DNA of 33,983 nt from a bacterium (GTDB lineage: Bacteria > Patescibacteriota > Doudnabacteria > UBA920), in the NCBI GenBank assembly GCA_021791515.1, contig JAJYWK010000066.1:1-33983 (forward strand), given 5' to 3'. The translations under genes and the position numbers were made by a program. This document shows, piece after piece, positions 14,896 through 29,970 of the stretch (positions within the stretch are counted from its first letter, which is position 1; each line of letters opens with the position of its first letter). The notes under the pieces were generated by a model. That model saw only the letters and a list, made by a program, of their open reading frames with translations. It was not told where the DNA came from and made no database searches.

Positions 14896-14950
14896 TGCGG
14901 GATAGAGCAATTGGCATCCGCCTTAGGCGGATCATAACCCTCTAAGTAGT
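14896..14950 (+). pseudogene. Disrupted 5' copy of initiator tRNA-Met
   Basis: TGCGGGATAGAGCAATTGGCA[TCCGCCTTAGGCGGA]TCATAACC; the first 21 nt match the intact tRNA at 15192 except position 1. Confidence 0.8.
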
Positions 14951-15229
14951 ATGTTTGAGGTTTACGTAATCCAAAATCCTAAAGGCACTTTATACACCGG
15001 TTTTACCTCAAATCTGGCTGCCAGATTAGCTGAACACAATACTGGAAAACCTGGAAACTATACTTATAAGCGTGGTCCTTGGAAACTTATACATAAAGAA
15101 ATTTATGAGTTCAAAGACGAAGCTTCTAAAAGAGAAAAGTTCCTCAAATCAGGAAAGGGGAGAGAATTTATTAAAAGCTTCGTGATAATATCGCGGGATA
15201 GAGCAATTGGCAGCTCGCAAGGCTCATAA
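14951..15229 (+). CDS. Small GIY-YIG family nuclease; C-terminus runs into the tRNA
   Basis: 'VYVIQNPKGTLYTGFTSNLAARLAEHN', 'EASKREKFLKSGKGREFIKS'; stop TAA lies in the anticodon loop of the downstream initiator tRNA. Confidence 0.88.
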   Translation: MFEVYVIQNPKGTLYTGFTSNLAARLAEHNTGKPGNYTYKRGPWKLIHKEIYEFKDEASKREKFLKSGKGREFIKSFVIISRDRAIGSSQGS

Positions 15230-15267
15230 CCTTGAGGTTCCCGGTTCGAGTCCGGGTCCCGCAACCA
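15192..15267 (+). tRNA. Initiator tRNA-fMet (CAT)
   Basis: C1xA72 mismatch (CGCGGGA/TCCCGCA), anticodon loop CTCATAA, encoded ACCA; close to the E. coli tRNA-fMet layout. Confidence 0.93.
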
Positions 15268-15395: not shown

Positions 15396-15451
15396 GACGG
15401 GATAGCTCAGTTAGTTACCTGCCTGCCGGCAGGCAGGGATCGTGGGATTCA
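15396..15451 (+). pseudogene. tRNA-like 5' half with a palindrome in the D-loop
   Basis: GACGGGATAGCTCAGTTAGTTA[CCTGCCTGCCGGCAGGCAGG]GATCGTGGGATTCA, then GCCCGCACTAAATTT. Confidence 0.6.
15418..15437. repeat. Dispersed palindrome CCTGCCTGCCGGCAGGCAGG
   Basis: Third identical copy in the window, inside a tRNA D-loop. Confidence 0.95.
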
Positions 15452-15498
15452 GCCCGCACTAAATTTTTACAATCAATTTTCTACCGTGGTCTTTTGGG

Positions 15499-15575
15499 GC
15501 CGGAGTAGCTCAGTTAGTTAGAGCGTGGGACTCATAAGCCCAAGGTCAGAGGTGCAATTCCTCTCTCCGGCACCA
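15499..15575 (+). tRNA. tRNA-Met (CAT), elongator (tRNA-Ile2 not excluded)
   Basis: GCCGGAG/CTCCGGC acceptor, TGGGA-CTCATAA-GCCCA, AGAGG-TGCAATT-CCTCT, encoded CCA. Confidence 0.9.
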
Positions 15576-15614
15576 TGAGCCCGCGGTATGGATAGAAATT
15601 TAGTGCGGGCCGAG

Positions 15615-15655
15615 TAAGCCCAAGGTCAGAGGTGCAATTCCTCTCTCCGGCACCA
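15615..15655 (+). pseudogene. Exact 41-nt duplicate of the tRNA-Met(CAT) 3' half
   Basis: TAAGCCCAAGGTCAGAGGTGCAATTCCTCTCTCCGGCACCA, identical to 15535-15575. Confidence 0.9.
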
Positions 15656-15809: not shown

Positions 15810-15898
15810 GGGACCGTAGCTCAATTGGTTACCCGCCCGAACGTACCGCTCGGTACGGGCGGGGAGCACCCGCCTGTCACCAAAGAGGTTAAAAGCAA
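15810..15898 (+). pseudogene. Disrupted 5' copy of tRNA-Asp
   Basis: GGGACCGTAGCTCAATTGGTTA[15832-15863 palindrome]GAGCACCCGCCTGTCAC then CAAAGAGGTTAAAAGCAA; matches intact tRNA-Asp at 16134 outside the insert through the anticodon loop. Confidence 0.85.
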
Positions 15899-16156
15899 AT
15901 GTATACCGTATACGTATTAAAAGATAAGCTGGGAAACCTATATAAAGGCTTTACTAGCGATACCGAAAGGAGAATTAAAGAGCATAAATATGGCAAGACC
16001 AAAACGACCAGAAAAATGGAAAATCTTCAAATTATTTACACCGAAAACTTAAATTCCAGACTTGAGGCCAGAAAAAGAGAAAAATATTTAAAGTCAGCCG
16101 CAGGAAGAAGATTCCTAAAATCAATAGGTATATGGGACCGTAGCTCAATTGGTTAG
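15899..16156 (+). CDS. Small GIY-YIG family nuclease; C-terminus runs into tRNA-Asp
   Basis: 'VYVLKDKLGNLYKGFTSDTERRIKEHK', 'EARKREKYLKSAAGRRFLKS'; stop TAG lies in the tRNA-Asp D-loop. Confidence 0.88.
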   Translation: MYTVYVLKDKLGNLYKGFTSDTERRIKEHKYGKTKTTRKMENLQIIYTENLNSRLEARKREKYLKSAAGRRFLKSIGIWDRSSIG

Positions 16157-16210
16157 AGCACCCGCCTGTCACGCGGGAGGTTACGGGTTCGAGCCCCGCC
16201 GGTCCCGCCA
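16134..16210 (+). tRNA. tRNA-Asp (GTC)
   Basis: GGGACCG/CGGTCCC acceptor, CCCGC-CTGTCAC-GCGGG, encoded GCCA. Confidence 0.93.
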
Positions 16211-17724
16211 GATTTCCGCGCTGGAACTTGCATAGTTGCGAGAGAATTTGGAGCTTCAGCGCGAGAATCTTCCGAAACTTTTGAGGTTTGCAAATCTACA
16301 ATACAGTCAAACACTGGCGTCCATTTGGGCACCAGTTTTTGGTTTGTGTGGACGAAACCTTCAAAGCAGAGCTTAATGATGGTGCGTTTTTGCATGACGC
16401 CGGATTTTTCGTAAAGAAGGTCAGCGTGGTCGTTAAAATTCAGCAGGTCGTTGAATGCTTGCACAAACTTGTCGGACTGGCTTTCCAGGTCGGCCAGCCG
16501 CTCCTGGTAGACCTGCTTTTCCCGCAGCAGCTCGTCCTGTGCCTTCAGAAAAATCTCGGCATCGATTAACCTTTTGGATCGATCCATAACCAGATTGCGG
16601 ATCTGCTGCTGGATTTTGACCAGTTCCTGCTTAATGCTTTTACGCTCCAGTTCTTCGTTGGTCAGCCTCGTCTTGGCAAAGTGCTGAAAGTAGGCATCCA
16701 TAGTCTTCTTCATTTTGCCCGGCAGCTGCACCCGGGACAGGAAAGCCAAAACTTGCGGTTCGATTTCTGTATCTTTAGAGTACCGCTTTTCCGGACAATA
16801 AATGTCGCGCCTCTTGGTGCAGCTGTAATACAGGTGACCTTTTTTAAGTTGTCCCACCATAGCCGAGCCGCAGTGGCCGCAGCGGATGTAACCAGACAAG
16901 GGGTAAATGTGCTTGCGGGTGCGGTCTGCATAATGGTTTCTCTCCTGGATTTTTTCCTGCACGTCGTCAAACAACTTTTTGGAAATAAGTGTCGGAAAGC
17001 TGGCCTGGGCAGTGCCGTACGCTGTCTTTATAAGGCCGTAGTAGATGGGATTGCCCAAAATGTGCTCTATTGTCCTCCGGCCGACTGGTGTGCCGCCCCT
17101 TGCCCGAAAGCCCCGCTCGTTAAGCAGCACGGCCAATGCCTCATAGCCGTACTTGCCGGTGGCGTAAAGATCAAAGGCTTGTTTGACGAACTTTGCCCGG
17201 GTATGGTCTATGGTTAAAAGCTTGGTCTTTTTATCGTTAAGATAGCCAAGCGGCGCCACTCCCGGAAAGCGGCCGCGCTCTACCGCTTCTTTCAATCCCT
17301 TTTTAACCTCCCAACTGATGTTCTGGCTCGTCCACTGGGCAATCGATGCCATAATATTCTCCACCAACTCTCCGGAAAAGGATTCGTCAAACTGCTCAAC
17401 CACCGAAATGACCCTGACATCGTGCTTTTTAAGCATCATTTTAATGGCGGCGTAGTCAGCGACATTGCGGCAGAGCCTGTCCAGCTTATGGACTAAGATG
17501 ACATCGACCTTGTCGTCAATTTTTGCCCTGTGCAGCATTTTTTGCAGCTGCGGACGTTCGGCCGTCCTGGCCGATTCGCCGCGCTCCTCAAAAACATTCT
17601 CCGGCAAGGAATGCCAGGCATGCTCAGTGGCATACTTTTGGCAGGCTTTTATTTGCGCCGGAATGGATAATTCACGTTCTGCCTGCCGGGTCGTGGACAC
17701 CCGGCCGTAAATAAGGTAGTTCAT
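16153..17724 (-). CDS. Large serine recombinase/integrase
   Basis: 'YGRVSTTRQAERELSIPAQ', 'VHKLDRLCRN', recombinase domain, zinc ribbon 'CGHCGSAMVG...YYSCTKR...C'; C-terminal 'GGARTRNLPRDRRVL' is antisense tRNA-Asp. Confidence 0.93.
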   Translation of the reverse strand: MNYLIYGRVSTTRQAERELSIPAQIKACQKYATEHAWHSLPENVFEERGESARTAERPQLQKMLHRAKIDDKVDVILVHKLDRLCRNVADYAAIKMMLKKHDVRVISVVEQFDESFSGELVENIMASIAQWTSQNISWEVKKGLKEAVERGRFPGVAPLGYLNDKKTKLLTIDHTRAKFVKQAFDLYATGKYGYEALAVLLNERGFRARGGTPVGRRTIEHILGNPIYYGLIKTAYGTAQASFPTLISKKLFDDVQEKIQERNHYADRTRKHIYPLSGYIRCGHCGSAMVGQLKKGHLYYSCTKRRDIYCPEKRYSKDTEIEPQVLAFLSRVQLPGKMKKTMDAYFQHFAKTRLTNEELERKSIKQELVKIQQQIRNLVMDRSKRLIDAEIFLKAQDELLREKQVYQERLADLESQSDKFVQAFNDLLNFNDHADLLYEKSGVMQKRTIIKLCFEGFVHTNQKLVPKWTPVFDCIVDLQTSKVSEDSRAEAPNSLATMQVPARKSGGTGGARTRNLPRDRRVL

Positions 17725-29722: not shown

Positions 29723-29890
29723 AAACAAAAAGGCCCCCACCAGGAGCTCGACCCTTTCGGGCCGAACGCACGGGTTTCCCCATGCGACCAGCAAAGGAAC
29801 CCTGGCGAGGGTTTCTCTATCCTTTGCTGGTTTGGCTACCGGAGCAGCCAGTTGCCATGCCCGAAGCCTGTAAGGCCTGCGGGTTTAGGC
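29723..29890 (-). ncRNA. Candidate structured RNA/leader upstream of the 55-aa ORF
   Basis: Hairpins ACCAGCAAAGGA...TCCTTTGCTGGT, GGCTGC-TCCG-GTAGCC, CCCG...CGGG; ends GGGGGCCTTTTTG on the minus strand. Confidence 0.45.
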
Positions 29891-29970
29891 GAATTTAGTT
29901 GTTAACTTAATTTTAACACAAATCAGGTAAAATAAAAACGAATTTTTGGTAAAATTTTTTCAAAGTTATT

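Follow-up and report, generated by a model that had tools for sequence, protein, structure and literature searches.

A stretch of 33,983 nucleotides was analyzed (the window), which is contig C22 of a draft genome of 1.17 Mb (G000, the source genome). It contains an Asp and an fMet unit, in each of which the ORF of a small GIY-YIG nuclease lies between a broken and an intact copy of the same tRNA gene, and a tRNA-Met unit without ORF. The features of these units are listed in Table 1.

Table 1. Features of the Asp, fMet and ORF-less tRNA-Met units of the window.
Feature	Position	Strand	Basis
Asp unit: 5′ pseudo-half of tRNA-Asp (acceptor 5′ strand and D-arm)	15810–15831	+	Direct repeat D2, 22/22
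Asp unit: 32-bp imperfect palindrome CCCGCCCGAACGTACCGCTCGGTACGGGCGGG at GGTTA^GAGC of pseudo-tRNA-Asp	15832–15863	+	Sequence; fold z −2.7
Asp unit: anticodon arm of pseudo-tRNA-Asp, equal to 16156–16172	15864–15880	+	Alignment block, tRNA 23–39
Asp unit: 85-aa GIY-YIG nuclease ORF, UPF0213/URI-like	15899–16156	+	Pfam PF01541, E 2.8e-11
Asp unit: intact tRNA-Asp(GTC), putative rescue copy	16134–16210	+	66.8 bits
fMet unit: 5′ pseudo-half of tRNA-fMet	14896–14915	+	Direct repeat D4; alignment above shuffles
fMet unit: palindrome ATCCGCCTTAGGCGGAT in pseudo D-arm	14916–14932	+	Fold of 14917–14933, z −4.0
fMet unit: 92-aa GIY-YIG nuclease ORF	14951–15229	+	Pfam, E 1.6e-14
fMet unit: intact tRNA-fMet(CAT)	15192–15267	+	tRNA search
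ORF-less unit: 5′ pseudo-half of elongator tRNA-Met	15398–15417	+	Direct repeat D5, 90%
ORF-less unit: palindrome CCTGCCTGCCGGCAGGCAGG	15418–15437	+	Fold z −2.3; dispersed, 16 places in genome
ORF-less unit: intact elongator tRNA-Met(CAT)	15499–15575	+	Between inverted repeats 15449–15469 and 15593–15613
ORF-less unit: 3′ pseudo-half of tRNA-Met	15614–15655	+	Direct repeat D1

The first segment of the Asp unit is identical to positions 1–22 of the intact tRNA-Asp (16134–16155). It is followed by a palindrome that folds better than its own shuffles and by the remainder of the 5′ half, which ends at the anticodon loop, 18 nt before the ORF. The 3′ end of the ORF and the start of tRNA-Asp share 23 nt. 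Apart from the intact tRNA, the source genome has no full-length tRNA-Asp match. The D-arm of the intact tRNA is the same as in the upstream half but is uninterrupted and carries no palindrome. Coordinates and order of half, palindrome, ORF and intact tRNA were recovered as given in a preliminary description of this DNA. That description did not mention that the intact tRNA may be part of the insert, nor that downstream 3′ halves are frequent at such units.

The Asp unit contains no ORF other than that of the GIY-YIG nuclease and hence does not qualify as a tRNA-targeting integrative element, which would have an integrase or recombinase and a partial tRNA restoring the gene end. The ORF matched PF01541 only, and the Y1 (HUH) transposase of RAYT/REP or IS200/IS605 elements is absent from the unit. 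A group I intron around the ORF was ruled out, as the Rfam search gave no Intron_gpI match within the window and the tRNA-Asp is uninterrupted. A gene for a large serine recombinase (16153–17724, minus strand) ends in the tRNA-Asp gene. Beyond it, onward to 33983, genes for a repressor-like HTH protein, an adenine methylase and a ParB-like protein were recognized by eye. The recombinase is presumably part of a larger neighboring mobile element and not of the Asp unit. This element apparently uses the tRNA-Asp of the unit as well and may be responsible for the loss of the 3′ side of the Asp unit.

The fMet unit is located ~1 kb upstream and has the same order of parts, including an overlap of the ORF and the intact tRNA. 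Both nucleases contain the motifs G-x-LY-x-GFTS and EA-x-KREK-x-LKS, as noted before, and share 44% identity over 81 residues. The ORF-less unit (15398–15655), which is absent from the preliminary description, is situated between the fMet and Asp units. Similar units with a different tRNA-Met are present in the genomes G003 and G011. Inverted repeats that lengthen the acceptor stem of the intact tRNA are found in this unit (15449–15613) and at the loci L010, L002 and L282. They may insulate the folding of the tRNA from the broken halves.

The Asp nuclease belongs to the GIY-YIG family (Pfam score of 44.0 bits, cut-off 22.6). Residues Y5, Y15, R25, H29, E49 and E61 are invariant in 13 tRNA-linked members, and the catalytic Tyr, Tyr, Arg, His and Glu of the family are thus present. 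A structural model derived from the single sequence is only moderately good (pLDDT 75). The nearest solved structures are UPF0213 proteins, followed by SLX1 and, weakly, by I-TevI. UPF0213 provides the closest matches in both sequence and fold; these are uncharacterized proteins of a single small domain (pdb entries 1zg2, BH0048, and 1ywl, EF2693). Where dS can be estimated, the ORF is clearly under purifying selection (dN/dS of 0.08–0.29). Several copies have internal stops, and the coexistence of selected and stop-bearing ORFs would be in line with a homing cycle.

The source genome has 47 tRNAs and 14 GIY-YIG domains; the reading frame around one of these domains has 660 codons, the length of UvrC. 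Of the 13 small GIY-YIG genes, five are followed immediately by an intact tRNA in the same orientation (fMet, Asp, Gln, Asn and Thr). For a tRNA start within a same-strand window of 180 nt downstream of the ORF, 0.0036 are expected per ORF and the chance probability of five in 13 is ~8e-10. Homologues were found in 47 of 60 relatives. Taking source genome and relatives together, a tRNA follows directly on the same strand at 50 of ~100 loci, a set that is enriched because it was chosen by similarity to the Asp nuclease. Three further loci (L044, L093, L099) have the mirrored order of tRNA, ORF and 3′ half. A scan of named genomes yielded 61 loci, with the tRNA downstream in 48 and upstream in five. 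The hosts include many groups of Patescibacteria, Bacteroidota (among them the cultured Flagellimonas alvinocaridis and Marixanthotalea marina), a Scalindua and a deltaproteobacterial genome. The repeated insertion strategy proposed from the two units of the window is strongly supported by these dozens of independent cases across phyla. Spread by viruses found no support, as a scan of IMG/VR with the alignment of the Asp clade gave no relative. M. marina has at least five GIY-YIG/tRNA units (L218, L222, L228, L234 and L240, at tRNA-Arg, -Met, -Leu, -Ala and -Pro, respectively).

The preliminary description had suggested comparing the nuclease phylogeny with the flanking tRNAs. In a tree of 53 tRNA-linked nucleases the isotype changes 24 times, compared to 41.0 ± 1.6 times for shuffled labels (minimum of 37 among 300 shuffles). 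The tree is based on few columns and has many weak forks; thus, only the overall association with the isotype is trustworthy. Groups linked to Glu, Leu, Met and Pro are nearly pure. The clade of the Asp nuclease is mixed (Asp, Phe, Ala, Val, Thr, Ile and Arg). The lineage of the enzyme is associated with its target strongly, not strictly, as would be expected of a free-standing homing endonuclease gene.

Remnants of the interrupted tRNA gene flank most units. A 5′ half matching the tRNA scores above 60 shuffles at 42 of the 50 linked loci and a 3′ half at 17 of 50; the corresponding numbers for the wider set of named genomes are 35/48 and 10/48. In most units the ORF starts ~0–30 nt from the broken half. 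Three loci are informative about the origin of the intact tRNA (L029, Val; L043, Leu; L096, Gln). Here, the acceptor strands of the two old halves pair with each other at 7/7 positions but with the intact tRNA, whose acceptor stem differs, at only 3–5 of 7. Accordingly, the intact tRNA arrived with the insert. At these loci an older tRNA gene was split, and the ORF brought along another tRNA of that isotype, so that a complete tRNA gene was reconstituted. At L038 (939–1164, minus strand), a group I intron (98.5 bits) interrupts the anticodon loop of the tRNA-Asn that belongs to a GIY-YIG unit, which fits a tRNA gene that is bound to stay functional. By eye, this intron seems to contain an HNH-type ORF, so that two homing-type elements would occupy one tRNA locus. 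At L027 (genome G026) an intact tRNA-Val lies in the loop of a palindrome that is itself located in the D-loop of another tRNA-Val, an arrangement of nested insertions.

Occupied and empty sites were found at orthologous positions. The Asp unit is part of a conserved fMet-Met-Asp cluster and is present in G000 and its relative G007 but absent from the cluster in G002, G006, G009, G011 and G012. Among these seven genomes the fMet unit is seen only in G000. Orthologous units with unrelated flanks, which would speak against the proposed strategy, were looked for; the G007 unit has the same flanks and the same palindrome. The Asp units of G000 and G007 differ by a C/T exchange in the anticodon stem that is common to the broken and the intact copy of each genome, an indication of intra-unit gene conversion. 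Of 28 tRNA-Arg(ACG) loci read in Flagellimonas, four have the nuclease upstream and 24 are empty. Occupied and empty alleles of one locus, as expected of a homing endonuclease gene, are thus present at the Flagellimonas tRNA-Arg and at the Asp site. The promoter-like sequence taaaaagaaatatatttgca precedes the empty tRNA-Arg gene and, in occupied loci, the 5′ half. Most likely, the promoter of the host tRNA has been captured.

A GC-rich stem of at least 8 bp is found in the 110 nt preceding the ORF at 26 of 50 linked and 12 of 52 unlinked loci, and in 41 of 764 background windows. Palindromes are mostly inserted in the D-loop (tRNA positions 14–22) or in the anticodon loop. The pattern of the Asp-type palindrome was found five times in 17 genomes, always at GIY-YIG/tRNA units (Asp, Asp, Phe, Ala and Val). 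On the basis of this confinement to five units, the idea of a merely generic dispersed repeat was rejected for the Asp type; it does apply to CCTGCCTGCCGGCAGGCAGG, with its 16 copies. The family is present at 17 of the 40 linked nucleases closer to the Asp enzyme and at 2 of 54 others (P 4e-6), and together with its nuclease clade it spans Patescibacteria and Bacteroidota. Its insertion sites are TA^GAGC or TA^GCTC. The palindrome CCCGCCCGTACCGAACGGTACGTTCGGGCGGG of L156, which has one outer-arm change in the Marixanthotalea copy, is the reverse complement of the palindrome of G007 and G015, and hence the family is found in either orientation. A search of 379 genomes of the phylum located the 32-mer, with up to 3 mismatches, at 14 places: eight in tRNA D-arms, five of them with no GIY-YIG gene nearby, and six elsewhere. 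Thus, the palindrome does not behave as a random repeat, nor is it strictly bound to the ORF cassette. Genomes with the 32-mer and no Asp-type unit have no close relative of the Asp nuclease (best identity 38–46%), so mobilization in trans by the Asp clade is unsupported there.

It is probable that each unit is a free-standing, homing-type GIY-YIG cassette that carries its own rescue tRNA. The minimal selfish cassette would comprise ~0.3 kb, with a complete tRNA gene behind the nuclease gene. It would enter a host tRNA gene of matching isotype in the anticodon or D-arm region and destroy the host tRNA; the 5′ half of the host gene would remain upstream and the 3′ half, when kept, downstream. 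Insertion into an essential gene would be survivable because the intact tRNA of the cassette replaces the lost one. With ORF and tRNA in this order on the same strand, the old host promoter could drive both the nuclease and the cassette tRNA. The nuclease is predicted to cut uninvaded copies of the tRNA gene in incoming or sister DNA, and repair of the break would then copy the cassette into the cut allele. The palindrome, fixed next to the D-stem in the broken halves, is probably the mark of the cut site or a cis-acting site of the nuclease, and would render the broken copy useless as a tRNA or as a target.

Some observations speak against a homing cassette. In the simplest units, including the Asp and the Flagellimonas Arg units, the rescue tRNA is the native one and has no palindrome. 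Hence a nuclease that cleaves the native gene should cut the rescue copy as well, and no source of immunity is visible. The enzyme might read the upstream flank, cut the donor allele poorly or act on the palindrome. Free-standing GIY-YIG enzymes that cut the donor allele poorly have been reported (discussed in PMC13096335). The preliminary description had supposed that the palindrome shields the upstream copy from cleavage. Such protection is not clearly favored by the sequences, since the palindrome is a conserved module specific to a clade and is found also where the ORF is missing, and since the D-arm of the intact tRNA is bare of it. Furthermore, some nuclease clades span several isotypes, and about half of the similarity-picked GIY-YIG genes in relatives do not adjoin a tRNA. 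A more far-reaching version is tentative: a natural home-and-rescue drive on essential tRNA genes across phyla, with the ~85-aa nuclease and its cognate 32-bp palindrome as a two-part system. The palindrome would be recognized by the nuclease, sit beside the D-stem, label the broken halves and also be mobilized without the ORF.

Alternatively, the mobile unit might be the palindrome itself, targeting the D-stem of tRNAs and moved by an Slx1-like GIY-YIG enzyme that acts on palindromes or cruciforms. The nuclease and the duplicate tRNA would then be by-products or partners, as in RAYT/REP. The structure-specific SLX1 nucleases are indeed the nearest solved relatives after UPF0213, one palindrome family accompanies one nuclease clade over two phyla, at TA^GAGC or TA^GCTC and in both orientations, and units of tRNA and palindrome without ORF exist, as in the window. 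However, a purely structural nuclease has no need to track the tRNA isotype, many units use dispersed palindromes such as that of the ORF-less unit, and 6 of the 14 copies of the 32-mer are outside tRNAs. This explanation is considered unlikely. Passive survivorship, in which tRNAs duplicate by an unrelated route while GIY-YIG genes and palindromes land widely and survive only in redundant tRNA copies, is less probable still. The 16 genomic copies of a dispersed-type palindrome and the GIY-YIG genes located elsewhere, about half of those examined, would suit it, but random landing does not predict the near-fixed order and strand, the proximity of the ORF start to the broken half, the foreign rescue tRNAs or the isotype-associated nuclease clades. 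Host control of the tRNA supply by a domesticated ORF and pseudo-half, for which the purifying selection and the overlapping ends of ORF and tRNA in the window unit could be cited, is the least credible in view of the patchy occurrence among congeners, the decayed ORFs next to intact tRNAs and the many unrelated isotypes.

The closest known enzyme to that of the proposed cassette, compared by role and not by sequence, is SegB of T-even phages. This homing endonuclease, a free-standing GIY-YIG enzyme, cleaves within tRNA genes and is encoded close to tRNAs (PMC13096335, PMC2988022). As a further likeness, an RNA hairpin upstream of SegB is believed to control its translation. SegB sits between phage tRNA genes, whereas the present ORF lies within a chromosomal tRNA gene and splits it; moreover, the present units bring a complete replacement tRNA and encode a protein of only ~75–95 residues. 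Group I introns with homing endonucleases occur in tRNA genes and in CPR rRNA genes (PMC3984707, PMC11270868), and the latter are rich in homing endonuclease insertions (PMC11270868). These are likewise homing-type elements in structural RNA genes and plentiful in CPR bacteria. In contrast to them, no intron RNA is present in the window and function is restored by a spare gene instead of splicing. In RAYT/REP systems, short palindromes with a conserved foot are linked to a nuclease family. In those systems the nuclease is a Y1 transposase rather than a GIY-YIG enzyme, and there is no tRNA rescue. Synthetic home-and-rescue or Cleave-and-Rescue gene drives (PMC7968924, PMC7951863) share the logic of breaking an essential gene and supplying a working copy. 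They are engineered, CRISPR-based and used in insects; the present rescue copy is often not visibly recoded. GIY-YIG cassettes that split tRNA genes and carry a spare tRNA were not found in the open-access literature, although an earlier description may exist, and no paper tying UPF0213/YhbQ to tRNA was found there.

If the proposed cassette is real, bacteria hold a natural counterpart of the engineered home-and-rescue drives. The cassette would rank with the smallest mobile elements of this kind, and its targets would be essential tRNA genes of almost all isotypes. It would also help to explain the tRNA fragments and palindromes in some tRNA neighborhoods of Patescibacteria, the replacement of some tRNA genes by foreign isoacceptors and the role of some uncharacterized small GIY-YIG (UPF0213-like) proteins. 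As Flagellimonas and Marixanthotalea are cultured genera, the idea is testable.

Minor observations concern other GIY-YIG genes and the remainder of the window. A clade of GIY-YIG proteins ends in RFLxLTG (L054, L065, L078, L079, L088 and L100); where tested, no Rfam RNA family was found alongside. At L001, on contig C32 of the source genome, a small GIY-YIG ORF apparently lies within the 16S rRNA gene and interrupts it. The known rRNA insertions of CPR bacteria are mostly of the LAGLIDADG type (PMC11270868). A LOOT RNA (RF03000) is located at 29749–29891 of the window on the minus strand, with a score of 50.7 bits that exceeds the gathering score.
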